This document shows, one piece after another, positions 260 to 13,329 of a stretch of 46,002 bases of DNA. The DNA is taken from the IMG/VR virus record IMGVR_UViG_3300027833_000082, positions 1 to 46,002 of that record, one strand, 5' to 3'. Position 1 is the first letter of the stretch. Each line of letters begins with the position of its first letter. Below the pieces are notes generated by a model. That model searched no databases. It was not told the origin of the DNA and saw only the letters and a list, made by a program, of their open reading frames with translations. Source of the DNA: a virus. The position numbers and the translations under genes are program-made.

Positions 260-372
260 GTAAATACAGCAATTGTTGTGGAACACCACCTTCATGGTTG
301 AGTGATTCTTTATGTGGGAGCTGCCATGAGCATGCAGAATTCTACACACAAACCGAAGACCAAGAAGATTAA
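256..372 (+). CDS. small zinc-ribbon-like protein, 38 aa
   Basis: This very short ORF has N-terminal NCCG and central CGSCHEH (CxxC plus His), the cysteine pattern of small phage zinc-binding proteins of the 'CCGAP...CxxCxEH' kind. Four cysteines and two histidines in 38 residues could hold one zinc ion. It starts by ATGA overlap with the preceding gene. Its TAA stop (370-372) lies inside stem I of the first hammerhead ribozyme. The cysteine spacing and the coupling make it credible despite its length. Its function is unknown; protein or nucleic-acid binding is possible. Confidence 0.65.
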   Translation: MSKYSNCCGTPPSWLSDSLCGSCHEHAEFYTQTEDQED

Positions 373-418
373 CTGACGAGACCTTATAGGTCGAAACGCT
401 GTGAAGCGTCTTAATCTT
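365..418 (+). ncRNA. hammerhead ribozyme, type I (HHR1)
   Basis: The full hammerhead core is present. Stem I is AAGATTAA (365-372) paired with TTAATCTT (411-418), 8 bp. CUGACGA lies at 373-379. Stem II is GACC/GGUC (380-383/389-392) with loop UUAUA. GAAA lies at 393-396. Stem III is CGCU/AGCG (397-400/405-408) closed by a GUGA (GNRA) tetraloop. A396-U409 is the 15.1-16.1 pair and C410 is the cleavage-site base. Helix I is the open one, so it is type I. Predicted cleavage after C410 leaves a 20-base leader on the gene at 431. It overlaps the stop codon of the zinc-ribbon gene. The structure was read by eye and activity is untested. Confidence 0.93.
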
Positions 419-430
419 AAAATATTTATT

Positions 431-574
431 ATGAAAGTAAAAAAGCATCTTATTCTGCCGACAGGACTGCATGCAATCCAAGACAGCAACAATCACGTAC
501 ACATTTACACTGAGGATGAATACCAAGAGCTAAATTGGTGGGCTTCAGTAAAACTAAAATTCAATTTAATATGA
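431..574 (+). CDS. hypothetical early protein, 47 aa
   Basis: This short ORF begins at ATG 431 after TTTATT, directly downstream of the first hammerhead, whose predicted cut would leave a 20-base leader. It ends in TGA at 572-574, overlapping the next ATG (571) as ATGA. The protein begins MKVKKHLILPTGLHAIQD, mixes basic and polar residues, and has a WW pair near its C-terminus. No family is recognised. Support comes from its leader, its exact fit between ribozyme and next gene, and the coupled overlap. Confidence 0.6.
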   Translation: MKVKKHLILPTGLHAIQDSNNHVHIYTEDEYQELNWWASVKLKFNLI

Positions 575-864
575 GAGTAACACTAAAATTTAAGACTGAC
601 CAAGGAACTGATTGGGTAGTAACGAAAGACTTTAACGATAAGAAGCATCAGGATAACTTCATTAATTATATCGAGAGAACAAAGGGATACCTTCTGGATG
701 AAGTCTTCGCTAAGGAAACAAAGCAAACAGCCGAAGCCATGTATCTGGATTGGTTCAATAACTTCATAAGTACTGAAGCATTTCGAGACCATTACGAGCT
801 AAGCTTATCTGAGGCTGAAAACATTATAGACGAAGGACGTAAAATTAATCAACTAAATAAATAA
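571..864 (+). CDS. hypothetical early protein, 97 aa
   Basis: I chose ATG 571 over an upstream GTG at 535 because it forms the usual ATGA overlap with the preceding ORF and follows an A/T-rich leader. The protein opens with an alternating polar/hydrophobic strand (MRVTLKFKTDQG) and continues as a mostly helical, charged chain with NFINYIERTKGYLLDEVF in the middle. There are no membrane segments or catalytic motifs. No family is recognised. It lies in the first ribozyme-bounded unit of the early operon. Confidence 0.7.
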   Translation: MRVTLKFKTDQGTDWVVTKDFNDKKHQDNFINYIERTKGYLLDEVFAKETKQTAEAMYLDWFNNFISTEAFRDHYELSLSEAENIIDEGRKINQLNK

Positions 865-869
865 ATATT

Positions 870-1109
870 ATGATATCACAAATTAATTTAATTAAGGAAG
901 ACGAAAAACATATCAGAACGCTGATAAACAACATAGATTCATCTAGCTATGAGCTGGTAGAAATTATCGAGGATTTTGACACAACAGTTAATAGCACGCT
1001 ATCAATTGATGATAACTATGGAGACAACCCATGGTCAGAACTTGTATTTGCACTAGAAAACCTTCAGGAGAAAATAACAGAGGTACAGGAACACGCAAAA
1101 TGGATATAG
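870..1109 (+). CDS. hypothetical early protein, 79 aa, acidic helical
   Basis: It starts at ATG 870 after AATATT, five bases past the preceding stop. The product is acidic and rich in predicted helix, with a central SYELVEIIEDFD segment and a C-terminal ALENLQEKITEVQEHAKW segment that could form a short coiled coil. No cysteines, membrane segments or enzyme motifs are seen. Function and family are unknown. It could be a small protein inhibitor, but this is only a guess from its acidity. Confidence 0.7.
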   Translation: MISQINLIKEDEKHIRTLINNIDSSSYELVEIIEDFDTTVNSTLSIDDNYGDNPWSELVFALENLQEKITEVQEHAKWI

Positions 1110-1129
1110 ATTAACTAAATAAAATAACT

Positions 1130-1378
1130 ATGCAAAACCTAAATTATAAAACTAAAATAGAAATATTATCTACTATTGACGAATTAAAACAGATAGTAAG
1201 AAGCAACGGATTTCAAGAATCTCAAGGAATTAGCCTTGTGGGAATTGAGATTGAAGTGCTGCAAAACCTTCTGCCCTTTTCTTGTATTGATACCAAGCGT
1301 CATCAGAAAGCTGAAACTGTGATTGATTTATTAGACGAATTAATAAATAAATTAAAAACCAATGGGGAGATTAACTGA
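1130..1378 (+). CDS. hypothetical early protein, 82 aa
   Basis: This is a small, mainly helical protein with two leucine/isoleucine-rich segments, one near residues 10-23 and one near 60-77 (VIDLLDELINKLK). It starts at ATG 1130 with the AATAACT leader. Its TGA stop (1376-1378) lies inside the CUGACGA core of the second hammerhead ribozyme. A ribosome finishing this gene would therefore sit on the ribozyme core. No family is recognised. Confidence 0.68.
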   Translation: MQNLNYKTKIEILSTIDELKQIVRSNGFQESQGISLVGIEIEVLQNLLPFSCIDTKRHQKAETVIDLLDELINKLKTNGEIN

Positions 1379-1422
1379 CGAGGATTTATTATCCGAAACT
1401 ACCTGAGAAGGTAGTCTTAATC
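1369..1422 (+). ncRNA. hammerhead ribozyme, type I (HHR2)
   Basis: Stem I is GATTAA (1369-1374) with TTAATC (1417-1422). CUGACGA lies at 1375-1381. Stem II is GGAU/AUCC (1382-1385/1391-1394) with loop UUAUU. GAAA lies at 1395-1398. Stem III is CUACCU/AGGUAG (1399-1404/1409-1414) with a GAGA (GNRA) tetraloop. A1398-U1415 is the 15.1-16.1 pair and C1416 is the predicted cut. Stems II and III differ in sequence from HHR1 yet still pair, which supports a selected structure. Cleavage would leave a 23-base leader on the gene at 1440. The upstream gene's stop codon is inside the core. Confidence 0.94.
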
Positions 1423-1439
1423 ATTAAAAATTATTTATT

Positions 1440-1718
1440 ATGAGACAATTTGAAATCTTAAGAGAAAAAATTACATCACGAGGTGGTGGAATTGAAATTA
1501 GCCTGAGTCCTTATGGCTATGATGACCAGAAAATGACAACCTATTGCAACTACCTTGGTGGTGGCATGCTTGGTAGTATCCAGAACGATTGCACCATTAG
1601 TGATTGGGAGCTTTCTACAGAGCTTTCACAAATCGCTGAAGAGCTAAGTCAGATGTTTGCAAACTTAATCAATGTAGACTATTCCTTTAACCAGAGCCTT
1701 CCAGAGTCGGCTTATTAA
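1440..1718 (+). CDS. hypothetical early protein, 92 aa
   Basis: It starts at ATG 1440 after TTTATT, 23 bases downstream of the predicted cut in the second hammerhead. The N-terminal half is glycine-rich (RGGGIEISLSPYGYDD, then NYLGGGMLGSI) and looks like beta structure. The C-terminal half is helical (ELSQIAEELSQMFANLI). There are two cysteines but no clear metal site. No family is recognised. Confidence 0.7.
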   Translation: MRQFEILREKITSRGGGIEISLSPYGYDDQKMTTYCNYLGGGMLGSIQNDCTISDWELSTELSQIAEELSQMFANLINVDYSFNQSLPESAY

Positions 1719-1729
1719 AAATTATAATT

Positions 1730-2071
1730 ATGTTACACACAAAAAAATTTAACAACAATGAGTACACTATCCAGAGCGAAGGGTACGAAAACAGTAGGTC
1801 TTGGGGACATATCTCTAAGCTCTATATGAACGGCATATACATGGGACAAAGAAAAGTAAGGTACATCAACAGAACGTGGGAGTCCTACAGATTTCGCTCA
1901 AGCATGCAGAACTTGGTACATGGCATGCTTGAGGACAGGATAGAAATGCACATAGCAGACTACAAGGAACAGAATGGGATTAAGAGACTCACAAAAAGTC
2001 GTAGAGAGGATGCCATGCAGTTTGCAGACGATAGGATAAAAGAATTACAATTACTTTATAAAACAATTTAA
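1730..2071 (+). CDS. hypothetical early protein, 113 aa, basic
   Basis: It starts at ATG 1730 after ATAATT, 11 bases past the preceding stop. The N-terminal half (residues 1-55) appears to be beta-rich with many aromatic residues (SWGHISKLYMNGIYMGQRKVRY). The C-terminal half is helical and highly charged with many arginines and lysines. Overall it is basic, so nucleic-acid binding is possible but not shown. No catalytic motif or family is recognised. Confidence 0.7.
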   Translation: MLHTKKFNNNEYTIQSEGYENSRSWGHISKLYMNGIYMGQRKVRYINRTWESYRFRSSMQNLVHGMLEDRIEMHIADYKEQNGIKRLTKSRREDAMQFADDRIKELQLLYKTI

Positions 2072-2072
2072 C

Positions 2073-2321
2073 ATGACAAACAACCATAAAGCACAGAAAC
2101 TGATAGCAGAATATTTTAAAATCAACAATGAGCATCCAGATGATGAGAACTTTGATTGGAACTACTATGATATCCTAGGATATCAAGAAACTCTAGACGA
2201 AACCCCAGAAGATGCATTTGACATAGAGGATATTGAACACCTTCAGATGCGTGTGAAATCCCTAAAAATGTATCATGAAGCCAAAAAACAATTAGAAAAG
2301 TTTGGTCATTTATATGCTTAA
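2073..2321 (+). CDS. hypothetical early protein, 82 aa, acidic
   Basis: It begins one base after the preceding stop (TAACATG), suggesting shared translation. The product is strongly acidic in residues 20-60 (HPDDENFDWNYYD, then ETPEDAFDIEDIEHLQ) and ends in a lysine-rich helix. There are no cysteines or membrane segments. No family is recognised. It is in the second ribozyme-bounded gene group of the early operon. Confidence 0.68.
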   Translation: MTNNHKAQKLIAEYFKINNEHPDDENFDWNYYDILGYQETLDETPEDAFDIEDIEHLQMRVKSLKMYHEAKKQLEKFGHLYA

Positions 2322-2354
2322 CGCTAAATTATAAACAACTAAAAATTAAAAATT

Positions 2355-2552
2355 ATGAAATTGTATGATGTACCAAGAAATAGTAGAATTAAAGTAATAA
2401 TTGAAGATAAAGTGCCAGTAGGTGCTCCTCAAATTACAGAAGGAGAAGAGCTTAACTTCAGGTCTATAGATGGAATGTATAGCTACTGCACCAGAGATGA
2501 TGGTGAAGTGGTACATTTAGCATCATGGACTGAAGTAGAAATTGTAGTATGA
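2355..2552 (+). CDS. conserved-type phage protein, 65 aa, beta-rich
   Basis: It starts at ATG 2355 after AAAATT. The sequence KLYDVPRNSRIKV ... GEELNFRSIDGMYSYC ... DGEVVHLASWTEVEIV resembles a small all-beta protein found as 'hypothetical' in many phages. These have an N-terminal strand, a GxExxxF turn, an IDGMYSxC core and an HLAxWTEVE ending. No catalytic residues are evident. The function is unknown even in relatives as far as I recall. The resemblance is from memory of the pattern, not a search. Confidence 0.72.
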   Translation: MKLYDVPRNSRIKVIIEDKVPVGAPQITEGEELNFRSIDGMYSYCTRDDGEVVHLASWTEVEIVV

Positions 2553-2647
2553 AAGTCAGGTTTGTACTTAAAATAGGTACTTTGCTCAAAACTTTGCTAT
2601 ACAGTAAAGGCAATCTATTGATATTTTTGTACAGAAGTAAAGGTTAA
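2549..2647 (+). CDS. possible 32-aa ORF between 2355-2552 gene and HHR3
   Basis: The ORF begins with an ATGA overlap at 2549 and ends in TAA (2645-2647) inside stem I of the third hammerhead, mirroring the zinc-ribbon gene at the first hammerhead. The product is short, basic and hydrophobic (MKVRFVLKIGTLLKTLLYSK). The same DNA also contains a candidate promoter element (2622-2629) and repeated ACTTTGCT words, so it may be mainly regulatory. The ORF is supported only by its junctions. Confidence 0.35.
   Translation: MKVRFVLKIGTLLKTLLYSKGNLLIFLYRSKG
2622..2629 (+). promoter_or_regulatory. candidate Bacteroidota -7 promoter element TATTTTTG
   Basis: TATTTTTG matches the Bacteroidota -7 consensus TAnnTTTG. 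A transcript starting about 5-8 bases downstream would begin just before stem I of the third hammerhead (2642). A TTTG lies upstream, but about 25 bases away rather than the usual 19 or so, so the -33 match is poor. Direct repeats of ACTTTGCT (about 2579-2598) lie just upstream and could be an operator. Confidence 0.35.
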
Positions 2648-2705
2648 CTGATGAGGATTGAATATCCGAAATCACTTATAGTTATAACTATAAGTGGTCT
2701 TAATC
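2642..2705 (+). ncRNA. hammerhead ribozyme, type I, long stem III (HHR3)
   Basis: Stem I is GGTTAA (2642-2647) with TTAATC (2700-2705). It includes a G2643-U2704 wobble where the other two copies have A-U. CUGAUGA lies at 2648-2654. Stem II is GGAU/AUCC (2655-2658/2664-2667) with loop UGAAU. GAAA lies at 2668-2671. Stem III is about 12 bp (2672-2683 with 2686-2697), starting with a U-G wobble. A2671-U2698 is the 15.1-16.1 pair and C2699 is the predicted cut. The core carries U where HHR1 and HHR2 have C, at the one freely variable core position. Cleavage leaves a 31-base leader, which contains a GCC-GAAA-GGC mini-hairpin, before ATG 2731. Confidence 0.93.
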
Positions 2706-2730
2706 AGCCGAAAGGCATAAATTTTTTATT

Positions 2731-2937
2731 ATGAGTATAGAAGCAATGAAAATGTTCATGTTAATGGGGGACATGACTAGCGAAAACAATTCCCTAGAAG
2801 AAAAGGTAGCGTATAAAGAGCGTATAGCCTTTGCAACCATGCGAAATGCCATTCCAGATTGGCAGCCACCAGAAGATTGGGACACCCTTTCAAACGAAAT
2901 TAAGATGGAGCGTTTATCTAAGCTAACTAGCGTATGA
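2731..2937 (+). CDS. hypothetical early protein, 68 aa
   Basis: It starts at ATG 2731 after TTTATT, downstream of the third hammerhead. The protein is methionine-rich at its start (MSIEAMKMFMLMGDM), then charged, with DWQPPEDWDTLSNEIKMERLSKL at the end, likely helical. There is no recognised family. It ends in TGA overlapping the next ATG as ATGA (2934-2937). Confidence 0.68.
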   Translation: MSIEAMKMFMLMGDMTSENNSLEEKVAYKERIAFATMRNAIPDWQPPEDWDTLSNEIKMERLSKLTSV

Positions 2938-3098
2938 TAAGTCAGGTCTACAAGGTGTATCTAATACACTCCTTCAAGGAAGGAAGCGAACCGAAAGCAA
3001 CAACTAAAACGACCTCATCTATTGAGGAGGCTCGTTTATGGATATCAGAGGCAGACTCTGGAGTAATTTATAACAGTAATAACATTAAAATTCAATAA
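2934..3098 (+). CDS. hypothetical early protein, 54 aa
   Basis: This short ORF is linked to the preceding gene by an ATGA overlap and fills the otherwise empty gap before the gene at 3103. It begins MISQVYKVYLIHSFKEGSE and has a middle SIEEARLWISEADSG helix followed by a strand. The beta-helix-beta arrangement with 'EEARLWI' resembles small phage proteins of unknown role. The call is supported by coupling and gap fit. Confidence 0.6.
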   Translation: MISQVYKVYLIHSFKEGSEPKATTKTTSSIEEARLWISEADSGVIYNSNNIKIQ

Positions 3099-3102
3099 AA
3101 TT

Positions 3103-3726
3103 ATGCCGAATCACGTATATCATTCAATTACAGCAAGTACCGAAGAGGGTACAGAGATACTAAGAGCAATGGCAAAGCATTCACATGGACTGTGTGGATA
3201 CCTTGAGCCTATGCCACAAGAATTAAGTGGAACAACTAGTCCACAAAGAATCCCAGAGCACATGACTCTAAACGAACAGAACGACTTAATAAATAAGTAT
3301 GGCTATTCAGATTGGTACTCATGGGCACACGCTAAGTGGGGAACTAAATGGGGTTGCTATGAGAATGAAATGGATGGATACAATTACACTTTTACTACCG
3401 CATGGGGAGTCTTTAATAACAGTATATTATTTAAGCTTCTTGAGGCTATACCATCCCTTGAATGGTCATGGGAAGAGGAGCAAGGATTTGGAGAAGAGGT
3501 AGAGTATGTAGACGGAGAGCAGGTCTATTTTCTTGAGTGGACTTGTCCTTCATGGTCAGAGCCTATAGAACACGAGGCAGAAGATTTTTACTTTCTTGAG
3601 TCAGACCACACAAACCCTATGGGCACGTTTACCTCTGGGTATTATGTAGACCAACACCTAACAAACAAGGTAGAAGATTTAGGTTTAATTGATAAACTTA
3701 ACGAACTATACTTGGACGGTAAATAA
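3103..3726 (+). CDS. Api92-like / YubB ferredoxin-like domain protein, 207 aa
   Basis: The start MPNHVYHSI, the early EPMPQEL segment, the KWGTKWGCYENE motif near residues 79-90 and the TFTTAWGVFNNSI segment match the Api92-like (YubB ferredoxin-like) family, common on plasmids and phages. A long C-terminal half rich in Glu and Trp follows. The biochemical role of the family is not settled; members are accessory proteins of mobile elements. The start is ATG 3103 after AAAATT. Identification is from motif memory, and the fold is typical length for the family. Confidence 0.75.
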   Translation: MPNHVYHSITASTEEGTEILRAMAKHSHGLCGYLEPMPQELSGTTSPQRIPEHMTLNEQNDLINKYGYSDWYSWAHAKWGTKWGCYENEMDGYNYTFTTAWGVFNNSILFKLLEAIPSLEWSWEEEQGFGEEVEYVDGEQVYFLEWTCPSWSEPIEHEAEDFYFLESDHTNPMGTFTSGYYVDQHLTNKVEDLGLIDKLNELYLDGK

Positions 3727-3742
3727 ACATTTATTATATTTG
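3711..3742 (+). promoter_or_regulatory. candidate Bacteroidota promoter (TTGG ... TATATTTG)
   Basis: TATATTTG at 3735-3742 fits the -7 consensus TAnnTTTG. TTGG at 3712-3715 lies 19 bases upstream, the usual distance for the -33 element. The predicted start falls about 20 bases before ATG 3765, in a 38-base gap between genes. It could launch a separate transcript for the replication genes starting with the DnaA-like gene region. Confidence 0.6.
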
Positions 3743-3764
3743 CAATTCATTAAACACATAAATT

Positions 3765-3971
3765 ATGGGAAGAACTAAAGAACTTCTTGCAGACATGCAA
3801 GAGCAAGAAAGAGACCTTACTGATGCAGATAGCAGCTATGAAATCTGGCTATCAAAGGTCACTCAACATCAAAAATCTTTAACAAGAACAACACAGGCAC
3901 TCGATGATATGTTCGAGGGCTTTGCTATGGCTATAAGGTATGGTCAGGAAGAATCTAAAAAATATAATTAA
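3765..3971 (+). CDS. hypothetical protein, 68 aa, helical
   Basis: It starts at ATG 3765 after TAAATT, just downstream of the candidate promoter at 3711-3742. The product is charged and helical (KELLADMQEQERDL, then TTQALDDMFEGFAMAIRYGQEESKK). There are no enzyme motifs or recognised family. The next gene starts at the base after its stop, so it is probably co-translated with the DnaA-like protein. Confidence 0.68.
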   Translation: MGRTKELLADMQEQERDLTDADSSYEIWLSKVTQHQKSLTRTTQALDDMFEGFAMAIRYGQEESKKYN

Positions 3972-4283
3972 ATGCACTATCCAATTTTTAGTGAGTACGT
4001 CTCACAGGTTTCCGAGGCGTACTCAATAAGTCCAGATAATTTGTTTGCTAAGAGTAAGCGTAGAGATATAGTAGATGCTAGACAGCTACTATATTTTCTT
4101 TGCTCTGAGTCACCTATGAGAATACGTTACATCCAACAATACATGGAAGAGAACGGATACAAAGTAGGTCACTCAACAATTATACATGGTATAAAAAGAG
4201 TAGAAGAGAGAGCGAATGCTCTAGTGTCTCCAAAAAAACACAGTCAAGTCCTTGTTAATAAACTAGCATCTAGCAATGTATAA
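3972..4283 (+). CDS. stand-alone DnaA domain IV-like DNA-binding protein, 103 aa
   Basis: Residues about 25-80 resemble the C-terminal DNA-binding domain of the bacterial initiator DnaA. A KSKRRDIVDARQLLYFLC helix (compare R..VxARQ.A.YL) is followed by the signature helix GHSTIIHGIKRVEE (67-79), equivalent to the H-[ST]-T-V-xx-[AG] motif that reads DnaA boxes. There is no ATPase domain. It could bind the phage origin or host DnaA boxes, either as an initiator helper or as a decoy. It overlaps the next gene by 8 bases. Confidence 0.8.
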   Translation: MHYPIFSEYVSQVSEAYSISPDNLFAKSKRRDIVDARQLLYFLCSESPMRIRYIQQYMEENGYKVGHSTIIHGIKRVEERANALVSPKKHSQVLVNKLASSNV

Positions 4284-4686
4284 CTCTTTGAGCACTGTAT
4301 TCGAGGAAGCTTATACAGACAAACTAGCAGCTAACCTAGACGGAGTTGGGTATGAAGCAAGAATGCTTTATGGCTGTAAGATTAGTAGAGACAATGAGTC
4401 TGGAAAAATTCACATACAGAACTGTGCCCTTGGTGGGGACATGTATAATAATATAGACAATGAAGACGAGTGGAAGTTTGTGGATAAAGGATGGAGATAC
4501 GGAGTGTATAGCCTGTGTATTAAAACCTACCTACTAAAACTAGATAGGATTGAGGAGAGAGTAAAGCTAGAGATGAACAGTAAACAGAATCCAAAGCAAA
4601 TTCAACACCTCAAGACTAATAGAGATAGAATATTAAAGAAGTATAACACAATAAACAATAAATTAAAAACGCTAAATTATGAGTAA
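4276..4686 (+). CDS. hypothetical protein, 136 aa
   Basis: It overlaps the DnaA-like gene by 8 bases and the DUF1071 gene by 8 bases, so it is clearly within the recombination/replication operon. The N-terminal half contains mixed polar segments with two cysteines. The C-terminal part (about 85-133) is lysine-rich and coiled-coil-like (KLDRIEERVKLEMNSK ... TNRDRILKKYNTINNKL). No family is recognised. The position suggests a role in DNA replication or recombination. Confidence 0.7.
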   Translation: MYNSLSTVFEEAYTDKLAANLDGVGYEARMLYGCKISRDNESGKIHIQNCALGGDMYNNIDNEDEWKFVDKGWRYGVYSLCIKTYLLKLDRIEERVKLEMNSKQNPKQIQHLKTNRDRILKKYNTINNKLKTLNYE

Positions 4687-5287
4687 TTCAAAATCAGTTT
4701 TCGAGACATTGAACTCTATCAATGTAAATGACAAAGTAGAAAAAAAGAACAACCTAACCTACCTATCATGGGCATGGGCATGGGCAGAGGTAAAGAAAAA
4801 CTACCCTACTGCAACCTACACAATCTATGAGAATGTAGATGGAATGTTCTACCACACAGATGGTAAGTCTGCATGGGTAAAAACAGGTGTAACTATTGAG
4901 GGTATAGAGCATATCGAATACCTACCTGTAATGGACTTCAGAAACAATTCAATACCTCTTGACAAGCTTTCTTCTGTAGATGTAAACAAAACTATTCAGC
5001 GTAGCTTAACGAAAGCTATTGCAAGACAAGGGCTTGGTCTTTATGTATATGCTGGAGAGGACTTACCTAATGGAGAGTCAAAGGAAGTAGCTAAAAAGCC
5101 AGCCCCTAAGAAGCCATTACCTAAAAAAAATGTTATAGAGTTAAACATAGGAGATGCTAACTGGGTTAAGGTTCTAAAGTATGTAGCTGCTAATAAAGAT
5201 AAGGGGATAAGAGTGATTGGCGAAGAGCTAAAAACTAAGTATGCTATGAATGATAATGTTAAAAAAGAAATAGCTAAATCAATATAG
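4679..5287 (+). CDS. DUF1071-family single-strand annealing-type protein, 202 aa
   Basis: Residues 24-130 carry the DUF1071 hallmarks: NLTYLSWAWAWAEVKKNYP, GKSAWVKTGVTIEGIEH, EYLPVMDFRNNSI, DVNKTIQRSLTKAIARQGLGLYVYAGEDLP. DUF1071 proteins are phage proteins grouped with single-strand annealing recombinases (Sak/ERF-like). The C-terminal about 60 residues begin with a KKPAPKKPLPKK linker and end in a small basic domain. Its neighbour downstream is a PD-(D/E)XK exonuclease, the usual partner for annealing recombinases in RecET/Red-type systems. Likely role: homologous annealing during phage DNA replication. Confidence 0.85.
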   Translation: MSNSKSVFETLNSINVNDKVEKKNNLTYLSWAWAWAEVKKNYPTATYTIYENVDGMFYHTDGKSAWVKTGVTIEGIEHIEYLPVMDFRNNSIPLDKLSSVDVNKTIQRSLTKAIARQGLGLYVYAGEDLPNGESKEVAKKPAPKKPLPKKNVIELNIGDANWVKVLKYVAANKDKGIRVIGEELKTKYAMNDNVKKEIAKSI

Positions 5288-5289
5288 AC

Positions 5290-6021
5290 ATGAAAGACAT
5301 CATCAAACTACTAAAAGACGATAGAGAATACTATGATGGGGTTGGAAAGAATTATCTTTCTAACTCCAATATAGGAGACCTTCTAAAGAATCCTAAGAAT
5401 TTTAACAAGAAGCAAGAGGACAACAAAAATTTTCTTGTTGGAAGATACTTTCACCAGCTAATACTAGAGCCAGAGAAAGCTGCTGCAACACCTCACGTTG
5501 ACGTAGCAACTCGTAGAGGCAAGGCATACGATGCTTTCTTAGAGGAAAACAACCTAACCATGGGATTACTTACAAAGGAAAAGATAATGCTGGAAAACCT
5601 AGTGGAAAGCATGCTAAACGTAGAAGACTTTAGAGCTTTGATTCAAGAAGAAGGAGTTCAGTACGAAGTGCCTATGGTAAAAGAGATACATGGAGAGATG
5701 TGGAAAGGTAAAGCTGACATCGTAGGAAGCGAACACCTTATTGACATCAAGACCACAGGTTCAATTGAAAAATTTAAGTGGAGCGTTAGAGATTATAACT
5801 ATGACAGTCAGGCATATATCTACCAGCAATTATTTAACAAGCCTTTAGTTTTTCTTGTTGTAGATAAAACATCTAAGATGCTAGGGATGTATCCTGTAAG
5901 CAACGAAAGTCTTGCTAGGGGAGAAGAGAAGGTTGTCAGGGCTATAGAACAATACCGAAAGTTTTATGGAGACAGTCCTAGCGAAGACCTAAACCAATTC
6001 TATTACTATGAAGAGGTTTAG
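5290..6021 (+). CDS. PD-(D/E)XK exonuclease (RecE/exonuclease VIII C-terminal-like), 243 aa
   Basis: The protein has the order of motifs of phage RecB-like exonucleases. H55 lies in GRYFHQLILEPE. The acid-x-K core is GKADIVGSEHLIDIKTT (D143, D152, K154). A Q-x-x-x-Y motif lies in YDSQAYIYQQ (Q174, Y178). It most resembles the PDDEXK domain of exodeoxyribonuclease VIII. It would degrade one strand of double-stranded DNA ends to provide single strands for the neighbouring DUF1071 annealing protein, two bases upstream. The predicted length is normal for this family and all key residues are present. Confidence 0.87.
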   Translation: MKDIIKLLKDDREYYDGVGKNYLSNSNIGDLLKNPKNFNKKQEDNKNFLVGRYFHQLILEPEKAAATPHVDVATRRGKAYDAFLEENNLTMGLLTKEKIMLENLVESMLNVEDFRALIQEEGVQYEVPMVKEIHGEMWKGKADIVGSEHLIDIKTTGSIEKFKWSVRDYNYDSQAYIYQQLFNKPLVFLVVDKTSKMLGMYPVSNESLARGEEKVVRAIEQYRKFYGDSPSEDLNQFYYYEEV

Positions 6022-6175
6022 TAATTATATAAAGGAAGCACTTAGTAGTAAACAAAAGAGGCGTGTAATGTGGTTTGAAGTTCCGATGTACTGCACGACA
6101 CGTCAAGGTAAGGATGATATTATCCTTACAACAATAGAAACATTGGAGCAAAAAATTAAAGTAAATAAATTATGA
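6008..6175 (+). CDS. hypothetical protein, 55 aa, basic
   Basis: This short ORF starts inside the end of the exonuclease gene (14-base overlap) and ends by an ATGA overlap with the SSB-like gene. The product is basic (MKRFSNYIKEALSSKQKRRV) with a central MWFEVPMYCTTRQG segment and a helical end. No family is recognised. It fills the entire gap between two recombination genes with overlaps on both sides, which supports it being real. Confidence 0.62.
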   Translation: MKRFSNYIKEALSSKQKRRVMWFEVPMYCTTRQGKDDIILTTIETLEQKIKVNKL

Positions 6176-6462
6176 GTTATTCAAACACCAAAGAAGAAAT
6201 TGTATTCGCAGACGGATTCAAATTTAGAAAGAAACATCCTAATCAAAAAGATTTTGTGCTAGGAAGTTTAAGTATCAAAGTAGATGATGCTATTGAATTT
6301 TTAAGAACCAACCAAAAAAATGGATGGGTGAATGTAGGTATCAAAGAAAGTCAGGCAGGTAATCCTTACATGTTTGTTGATAACTTTGAGCCAAAGCCAC
6401 GTAACGGAGTGGACACAGCTCCTAACCAATCACCTGTACAGGAGTCAGACGTGCCATTTTAA
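6172..6462 (+). CDS. ssDNA-binding-protein-like, 96 aa, with SSB-type C-terminal tip
   Basis: This short beta-rich protein (KEEIVFADGFKFRKKHP, VLGSLSIKVDDAIEFL, WVNVGIKESQAGNPYMFV) ends in a flexible tail closed by ESDVPF. This matches the acidic DD[I/V]PF tip through which SSB recruits partners. Its place beside the annealing protein and exonuclease, and before the primase-helicase, fits a phage single-stranded DNA-binding role. It is shorter than typical SSB and the OB-fold cannot be proven by eye. A hairpin terminator follows its stop. Confidence 0.62.
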   Translation: MSYSNTKEEIVFADGFKFRKKHPNQKDFVLGSLSIKVDDAIEFLRTNQKNGWVNVGIKESQAGNPYMFVDNFEPKPRNGVDTAPNQSPVQESDVPF

Positions 6463-6480
6463 TTAACTTAAAACTGTAAT

Positions 6481-6505
6481 TGGAGGTCGCAAATTGCGAC
6501 CTCCA
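6481..6505 (+). terminator. hairpin terminator after the SSB-like gene
   Basis: A perfect 25-base inverted repeat, TGGAGGTCGCAA / TTGCGACCTCCA around a central A, lies 18 bases after the stop codon and is followed by TTT. The stem is strong and GC-rich in otherwise AT-rich DNA. The T-tract is short, so termination may be partial. It would close the recombination transcript before the helicase operon. Confidence 0.7.
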
Positions 6506-6522
6506 TTTACTAAACGATAACT

Positions 6523-6627
6523 ATGAGAAACAAGACCAAAATAACAGCATGGATACTAATAGCGTTTATATCGTTCTTAGTATTAAGAGTCATTATAAAG
6601 GTTGTGTCAACTTTATTCTCTATATAG
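6523..6627 (+). CDS. possible 34-aa single-pass membrane protein
   Basis: ATG 6523 follows AACGATAACT and the ORF runs to TAG at 6625-6627. The product starts MRNKTKITAWILIAFISFLV and then carries more hydrophobic residues. This gives a positively charged N-terminus and one clear membrane-spanning segment of about 20 residues. It lies alone between the terminator (6481-6505) and the repeats before the primase. It could be a small membrane effector or holin-like peptide, but its size gives no assignment. Confidence 0.42.
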   Translation: MRNKTKITAWILIAFISFLVLRVIIKVVSTLFSI

Positions 6628-12417: not shown

Positions 12418-12611
12418 TGAAACCACACATAACATCACTGGAGAATGAAAGAATAAAATATGTTAACACTATTGTTAATGAACTTCACGACTCTTGCGAT
12501 GAGATATACGAGTCCTTAATAGACCACGAATACCCTGAGTGTAGAGAAATTTCTAAGGACTTAATCTTAAAGTTAAAATCAATGATAGAATCAATGGAAG
12601 ATGACTTATAA
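12417..12611 (+). CDS. hypothetical protein, 64 aa, acidic helical
   Basis: It starts by TAATG overlap with the preceding stop and overlaps the phosphoesterase start by 11 bases. The small helical protein has HDSCDEIYESLIDHEYPECRE in its centre and ends SMIESMEDDL. No recognised motif. Overlaps on both sides make it credible as a gene. Confidence 0.65.
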   Translation: MKPHITSLENERIKYVNTIVNELHDSCDEIYESLIDHEYPECREISKDLILKLKSMIESMEDDL

Positions 12612-13329
12612 AAAAAAAGATTTTAGACCTAGGTTAAAAGGCAAGATATTAAAAGCCTACAATAACCTTATTAAAAAAGAAAGTAGAGTTCTAATCATAG
12701 GGGATTTGCATGAGCCATATTGTTTAGATGGATACCTTGAGTTCTGTAAGGAACAGTACGCTGTACATAACTGTAACAGAGTAGTATTCATAGGGGACGT
12801 GATTGATAATCACTATGCCAGCTATCATGAGACATCTACAGAAACGATAGGAGGAAAATTTGAGCTGGAGCAAGCGGTAAAAAAACTATCTAAATGGTAC
12901 AAAGCTTTTCCAAAAGCTGAAGTTACTTTGGGTAATCATGACCGTCTGATTATAAGGAAGGCCCAGTCTTCTAACATTCCGTCTAAATGGATTAAAGAAT
13001 TTAAAGAAGTGTTAGAGACTCCTAAATGGAAGTTTGTAACTGAAGTTTTTATTGATGGTGTTCGATATGTTCATGGAGATAAAAGCGGCAAGCCAAGGAT
13101 GGCTGCTAAAAGAGATATGATTTCTACTGTTTCTGGACACTACCATACAGACTTTTATTGTGAGTGGATGTTTGGAAAAACAAGAGCTATATTTGGTATG
13201 TCCGTAGGATGTGGTATAGACAGCAAGTCTTATGCTATGGGTTACATGCAAGGAGGTAAGAAAGAAGCGATTGGATTAGGTGTTGTTATAGGTGGGCACA
13301 CTGCATTTAATGTTAAGATGTTTTTGTAA
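12601..13329 (+). CDS. calcineurin-like metallophosphoesterase, 242 aa
   Basis: All family motifs are present: GDLH (34-37), GDVID (65-69), GNHD (111-114), VHGD (157-160) and SGHYH (178-182). These bind two metal ions and hydrolyse phosphoesters. Phage members are thought to act on nucleic acids or nucleotides, but the substrate cannot be read from sequence. Length is normal. The next gene begins on the last base of its stop (TAATG). Confidence 0.86.
   Translation: MTYKKKDFRPRLKGKILKAYNNLIKKESRVLIIGDLHEPYCLDGYLEFCKEQYAVHNCNRVVFIGDVIDNHYASYHETSTETIGGKFELEQAVKKLSKWYKAFPKAEVTLGNHDRLIIRKAQSSNIPSKWIKEFKEVLETPKWKFVTEVFIDGVRYVHGDKSGKPRMAAKRDMISTVSGHYHTDFYCEWMFGKTRAIFGMSVGCGIDSKSYAMGYMQGGKKEAIGLGVVIGGHTAFNVKMFL

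Follow-up and report, generated by a model that had tools for sequence, protein, structure and literature searches.

The window, by which we mean the whole 46-kb virus record IMGVR_UViG_3300027833_000082 (46,002 nucleotides), begins inside an early operon on the plus strand that runs from before base 1 past the recombination genes to about position 6,460. Three hammerhead ribozyme sequences (HH1, HH2 and HH3) lie within 2.3 kb of this operon, all in the same orientation, and it is these elements, their relatives in other phages and their probable part in the processing of phage messenger RNA (mRNA) that we describe here. The features of the region, with open reading frames (ORFs) given by their positions, are as follows:

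365-418, plus strand: HH1, type I with an open stem I; predicted cut after C410, next ATG at 431
431-1378, plus strand: gene block between HH1 and HH2 (ORFs 431-574, 571-864, 870-1109 and 1130-1378); predicted RNA product 411-1416
1367-1424, plus strand: HH2; predicted cut after C1416, next ATG at 1440
1440-2647, plus strand: gene block between HH2 and HH3 (ORFs 1440-1718, 1730-2071, 2073-2321, 2355-2552 and 2549-2647); predicted RNA product 1417-2699
2640-2707, plus strand: HH3; predicted cut after C2699, 12-bp stem III, next ATG at 2731
2707-2716, plus strand: GCC-GAAA-GGC hairpin, close to the start of the predicted HH3 downstream product
2731-6462, plus strand: block downstream of HH3, leading into the recombination genes
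4679-5287, plus strand: Sak-like annealing protein, a recombination gene downstream of HH3
5290-6021, plus strand: exonuclease, a recombination gene downstream of HH3

In each of the three copies CUGA[C/U]GA is followed by stem II, GAAA, stem III, UC and stem I, and all three contain the structural core CUGANGA...GAAA...NUH with H17 = C or A, stem I being open and stems II and III closed. Stem III measures 5, 7 and 12 bp in HH1, HH2 and HH3, respectively, when the core-adjacent A-U pair is counted, stem I of HH1 pairs over 8 bp, and the hammerhead is the minimum-energy fold of both HH1 and HH2 (-14.4 kcal/mol each). The genes upstream end within the elements: stem I of HH1 holds the TAA stop of the 38-aa ORF 256-372, which lies upstream, the UGA within the CUGA of HH2 is the stop codon of the 82-aa ORF 1130-1378, and stem I of HH3 holds the TAA stop of ORF 2549-2647. 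The gaps that hold a ribozyme are 58, 61 and 83 nt long, versus -14 to 38 nt for the remaining gaps of the operon. An earlier note, made from the letters of this DNA, had described a series of ribozymes between consecutive early genes; they do lie between genes, but they set apart blocks of four to five genes and do not separate every pair.

The pattern of core, GAAA and UCUUAA occurs three times on the plus strand of the window against 0.08 expected, and none of 100 shuffles reached three. A covariance model (R2), built from 47 relatives with the window sequence excluded, scored HH1, HH2 and HH3 at 69.0, 53.8 and 50.2 bits (E-values 4.2e-17, 8.5e-13 and 9.3e-12), the next match in the window having an E-value of 0.11. 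In the R2 alignment both sides have changed in 13 of the 15 pairs, spread over all three helices (12 of 15 pairs in the R1 alignment), and 100% of its cells were paired, versus 70% when shuffled and 30–36% when slid. The model and pattern evidence bears out the positions and strand that the earlier note had given for the three hammerheads (the ends of HH2 and HH3 are now extended to 1367-1424 and 2640-2707), and the cuts it predicted after C410, C1416 and C2699 fall where it placed them; its account of the loops, the stem lengths and the compensating differences between stems also stands, with stem III counted as above. A looser, core-only pattern was abandoned (11 matches versus 4.7 expected, eight of them outside the full element).

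At the Rfam gathering thresholds nothing was found in the window, and the same thresholds yielded no hammerheads in 16 loci that contain more than 50 relatives; a gathering threshold is a database cut-off and involves no biochemical criterion. With RF00163 (Hammerhead_1) only HH1 scored, at 29.2 bits against a cut-off of 34, HH2 and HH3 being unlisted, so that running the Rfam type I model over the window, the check proposed in the earlier note, would have failed as a test. The RAGATH-1 hammerhead model (RF03152) overlapped weakly with HH3 and HH1 (22.9 and 19.9 bits, the cut-off being 56.3). The window copies have the hammerhead core in common with RAGATH-1, although they score far below its cut-off, and with RF00163 they share the core, the stem order, the open stem I and the 6-bp stem I of the model, while the subclass to which we assign them departs from RF00163 in its sub-threshold score and in the absence, as a rule, of pairing beyond 6 bp. 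Low-scoring Rfam matches to HOTAIR and snoRNA in the window were dismissed as chance.

The first pattern scan of virus contigs gave at least 120 loci, but the UUAA in stem I was fixed in it and it could not show conservation of stem I; two further scans were therefore run that ignored stem I and fixed stem III instead. All 155 non-redundant cases from these stem-I-blind scans form a stem I of at least 5 bp (exactly 6 bp in 142), and 99.4% of stem I cells are paired, versus 58.6% when shuffled (maximum 63.3%). The stem-I-blind set contains 54 distinct stem I 6-mers, which led us to drop the notion of UUAA itself being conserved. The same fate met an extension of stem I past 6 bp as a general feature, the outer flanks giving -2.14 kcal/mol versus -2.08 +/- 0.12 kcal/mol when shuffled. 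A structural descriptor recovered 165 hammerheads in the DNA analysed, whereas reversed or complemented controls gave none. The cleavage triplets in 146 relatives are GUC (116), AUC (20), GUA (6) and others (4), and stem III is variable, with loops that vary freely.

Loop II is mostly U-N-A-N-U, in which case the base just outside stem I is A in 129 of 129 sequences; where loop II is a GNRA loop, this base is other than A in 10 of 10. The loop II class matches the base outside stem I in all 139 classifiable cases, a correspondence seen at the level of primary sequence (p 2e-15, to be taken only as a guide because the sequences are related and not independent). In natural hammerheads loop II docks on stem I at this place, and the association suggests that the tertiary contact needed for fast cleavage is intact. 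By these sequence features the elements form a compact type I subclass with an open stem I of 6 bp, a U-N-A-N-U loop II that goes together with an A just outside stem I, and a variable stem III.

Hundreds of related phages carry compact hammerheads, from one to about 14 copies each. Among 42 virus records found by pattern, in samples that were chosen by hammerhead presence and do not give prevalence, there are one to nine copies, and in the 22 records with at least two all copies lie on one strand. G005, a close relative of the window phage, has nine copies in 4.3 kb. The T7-like phage G365, which encodes a phage RNA polymerase, a primase-helicase and a DNA polymerase, has 13 copies by model and 14 by descriptor over about 25 kb. 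The roughly 14 hammerheads of G365 (L355/L356, a 39.8-kb virus contig) are all on the minus strand; in one of them the stem III region is very long and contains additional structure, and two copies have the same stem III. The left end may be missing from the window; L125 has three additional ribozymes upstream of its ortholog of ORF 256-372, and the three copies of the window may accordingly be a lower bound.

The terminase of the window matches those of Flavobacterium and Cellulophaga phages. Residence of the element mainly in host genomes was rejected, since only one of 300 Flavobacteriaceae genomes has it and a collection of 84,980 species gave 17 stretches with it, mostly from Bacteroidota. 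A 5.8-kb contig binned as Aliivibrio (L149, JAAGZR010000219.1) holds eight hammerheads together with genes of the window's phage group and is almost certainly a misbinned phage contig. Pelagibacter phages also carry related hammerheads; at L160:2948-3007 and L162:2496-2557 the hammerhead lies upstream of MarR-type regulator and integrase genes and has a UA cut site and a different flanking layout.

The window sites were compared with those of five close relatives (L125, L149, L334, L335 and L336) and the more distant L350. A counterpart of HH3 precedes the ortholog of ORF 2731-2937 in all five close relatives, a counterpart of HH2 precedes the ortholog of ORF 1440-1718 in L125, L334 and also L350, and a counterpart of HH1 follows the ortholog of ORF 256-372 in all three relatives that have the region. 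A fourth hammerhead site is found in L125, L149 and L336 and not in the window. At the HH2 site, stem II reads GGAU/AUCC or GACU/AGUC and stem III CUACC/GGUAG or CCACC/GGUGG across the orthologs, with the pairing kept in both stems, and the orthologous copies at the HH1 and HH3 sites likewise pair in spite of altered stems.

These junctions also bear on the idea that the hammerhead is kept mainly as a homology patch for the swapping of gene cassettes, cleavage being incidental. Gene neighbours are kept across a hammerhead in 12 of 80 cases versus 100 of 241 at other accessory junctions of six related genomes (p 1e-5, from pairs that are not independent and from simple ORF calling). ORF 256-372 retains its hammerhead while the next gene is different in all four genomes, and the Sak-like annealing protein and the exonuclease are encoded nearby. 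We nevertheless regard this as improbable, given that RNA structure is under selection, as the compensatory stem changes and the association of loop II with the flank show; homology alone would have no need of such selection.

The predicted cut lies 10–45 nt before an ATG in 85% of the 146 cases and in 82% of the 155, versus 17–18% at random positions, and over 301 pooled cases the distance from cut to next ATG has a median of 24 nt (interquartile range 21–27). In the window the leaders between predicted cut and start codon are A/U-rich and 20–31 nt long. HH3 and three other copies have a 3-bp GNRA hairpin directly after stem I, and their leaders (31–32 nt) are longer by about the length of the hairpin, which is GCC-GAAA-GGC in the window and GGC-GAAA-GCC in relatives, a compensatory change. 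A repeated leader was seen in L126 / L061, where a very similar stretch, for instance AAAAGTCAGGTGCAGACTATAACAGGCAC, lies between each of six hammerheads and the next gene. On the other side of the ribozyme, the upstream gene usually ends just 5' of stem I, within it (TAA at -3) or at the UGA of CUGA.

Stops in such places would also be expected if cleavage were subject to control, above all by ribosomes translating the upstream gene, with the terminating ribosome covering stem I and the core, or by a ligand or protein. The TAA in stem I or the UGA of CUGA serves as upstream stop in 56 of 129 cases and in 58 of 150 from the stem-I-blind scans, the remaining stops being for the most part within about 25 nt upstream, and the three window stops (TAA, UGA and TAA) are all inside the elements. 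However, UUAACUGA itself has stops in two frames, which compact genomes would reuse anyway, and no aptamer-like conserved domain was found in the subclass, the stem III loops being freely variable. Conditional control seems to us unlikely.

We consider it likely, on the comparative evidence, that the window elements are compact type I hammerheads that act as cis-cleaving punctuation, cutting polycistronic phage mRNA between genes. The element is real and widespread, and the mechanism put forward in the earlier note, cutting of the polycistronic early mRNA, is plausible and seems the best-supported reading, because position, strand, covariation, conservation in relatives and the layout of stop, ribozyme and start all fit it. 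After RNA polymerase has passed, each hammerhead would fold and cleave the transcript that contains it, 3' of the C in the UC site. Stems II and III would form a pair of hairpins at the end of the upstream product, which would carry a 2',3'-cyclic phosphate, while the downstream product would start with 5'-OH-UUAAUC and carry a short A/U-rich leader before the start codon. The expected products are RNAs 411-1416 and 1417-2699 plus the flanking parts, so that the operon RNA would be divided into translatable blocks without a host nuclease. A terminating ribosome would probably delay folding of the ribozyme, because the upstream stop lies in or beside it. Hairpin 3' ends and 5'-OH ends slow common RNA decay routes, and the ends left by cutting in the cell may affect the stability of the products.

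Several observations weigh against this reading. A compact intergenic element would sit between a stop and the ribosome-binding region anyway; as the spacing is to some extent a consequence of genome compactness and of keeping the ribosome-binding region free, it supports a role in mRNA processing and is by itself no proof of one. Hammerheads are few or absent in more distant relatives: the nearest named one, MW202828.1 (TerL 76% identical), has none. Three relatives share about 80% identity in the exonuclease gene; two of them, L337 and L339, lack a canonical copy in the stretches examined, and the record of L338 has two variants with a U.U in stem II. In HH3 a competing CUGAU/AUCAG pairing is favoured over the hammerhead by 1.1 kcal/mol (-18.6 versus -17.5). 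Finally, the broken copies of some cultured phages, to which we turn now, indicate that the element can be dispensable. As to the variants of L338 (233-289 and 1861-1917), the U.U replaces the usual first G-C pair of stem II, the common stem II sequence being UUGCUAAUUGCAU.

Cultured Flavobacterium phages of the genus Elemovirus carry one copy, with stem I GGCAAA/UUUGUC, in the same arrangement of stop, ribozyme and start and with 26 nt to the ATG. Among six such sequences stem II is GGUU/AACC in elemoA, B and C and GACU/AGUC in elemoE (a double compensatory change), whereas elemoD and elemoF, with their copy in the same place as the intact ones, have a mismatched stem II, GACU/AACC. The elemoD and elemoF copies resemble a mixture of the two intact stem II types. 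In most of the Elemovirus records (L357-L361, L158:6003) a minus-strand ORF is annotated over the element. If the broken stems of elemoD and elemoF and the Rfam scores under threshold were taken to mean that the elements at large are inactive relics or chance resemblances, 165 matches against none in the reversed controls, the covariation and the conservation at orthologous junctions would be hard to account for; the covariation appears largely to refute this view, which we find scarcely credible.

Clusters of hammerheads in prophages, with multiple copies flanking genes on many occasions, were reported by Perreault et al. (2011), who put forward a division of phage transcripts into shorter mRNAs and found cleavage of three hammerhead clusters in vitro, and of one in E. 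coli (PMC3088659). A 2017 review gives the same clustered arrangement and proposal and leaves the biological role open (PMC6155905), and a 2023 paper calls the biological reason for phage hammerheads unknown (PMC10085705). Two descriptions in the earlier note, of phage hammerheads as mostly single and of the arrangement as an undescribed system, have to be given up, since multiple copies, their clustering and a proposed processing role were all published in 2011 (PMC3088659). Those clusters resemble the one in the window: single genes or short gene blocks of a phage genome are flanked by several hammerheads in the same orientation. Unlike the 2011 examples, which come from prophages, include hammerheads of types I, II and III and in many cases lie near integrases, the elements described here belong to one type I subclass, have a stereotyped order of stop, ribozyme, 24 nt and start, and are found in virus contigs and rarely in host genomes. 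Cleavage was shown for the three clusters of other kinds and is predicted for the window subclass. What is new is the subclass, which may have been noticed elsewhere, its stereotyped layout, and the presence of intact and broken versions in cultured Flavobacterium phages.

The HHphage hammerhead of Halovirus HF1/HF2 likewise belongs to an early transcript, with 13 nt separating it from the start codon that follows, and a reported transcript 5' end has been taken as a sign of its activity in vivo (PMC3088659). It differs from the window copies in being a structural variant, present as a single copy, in an archaeal virus. In phage T7 the one early transcript is divided at several RNase III sites, all intercistronic and in the same orientation, where cutting leaves hairpin 3' ends. 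The T7 sites work alike, by analogy and not by homology; T7 needs the RNase III of its host, whereas the cut in the window would be built into the RNA.

Hammerheads can ligate, and two cuts in one transcript give matching ends. On these grounds a pair of hammerheads might free an RNA of gene length that then undergoes re-ligation or circularisation, or that survives as a non-coding RNA, but spacing and copy number are widely variable and the pieces are ordinary genes, and we judge this very improbable. Perreault et al. raised the possibility, and their search for spliced or circular products yielded none (PMC3088659).

Elsewhere in the window, a long perfect inverted repeat, GGAGGTCGCAA/TTGCGACCTCC, occupies 6470-6530, in the gap past the last small early gene, and possibly marks the end of the early operon. 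A calcineurin-like metallophosphoesterase, which might conceivably act on 2',3'-cyclic phosphates or other RNA ends, is encoded at 12601-13329, where the replication genes end. Among the subset of window proteins that was scanned, none was recognisable as a phage RNA ligase or an RNA-end-repair enzyme.

Standard Rfam models miss a widespread class of hammerheads, which has led to its being overlooked in phage annotation. The subclass makes the role of clustered ribozymes testable: its geometry relative to the neighbouring stop and start codons is fixed, a single genome can hold about 14 copies, cultured phages carry the element, and elemoA, B, C and E (intact) versus D and F (naturally broken) make up a natural test set among close isolates. 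More tentatively, and with some doubt on our part, many phages, mostly of Bacteroidota, might use arrays of this subclass as a self-contained code for mRNA maturation (stop, cut, leader, start) that needs no host nucleases, the same elements marking the boundaries at which gene cassettes are exchanged.

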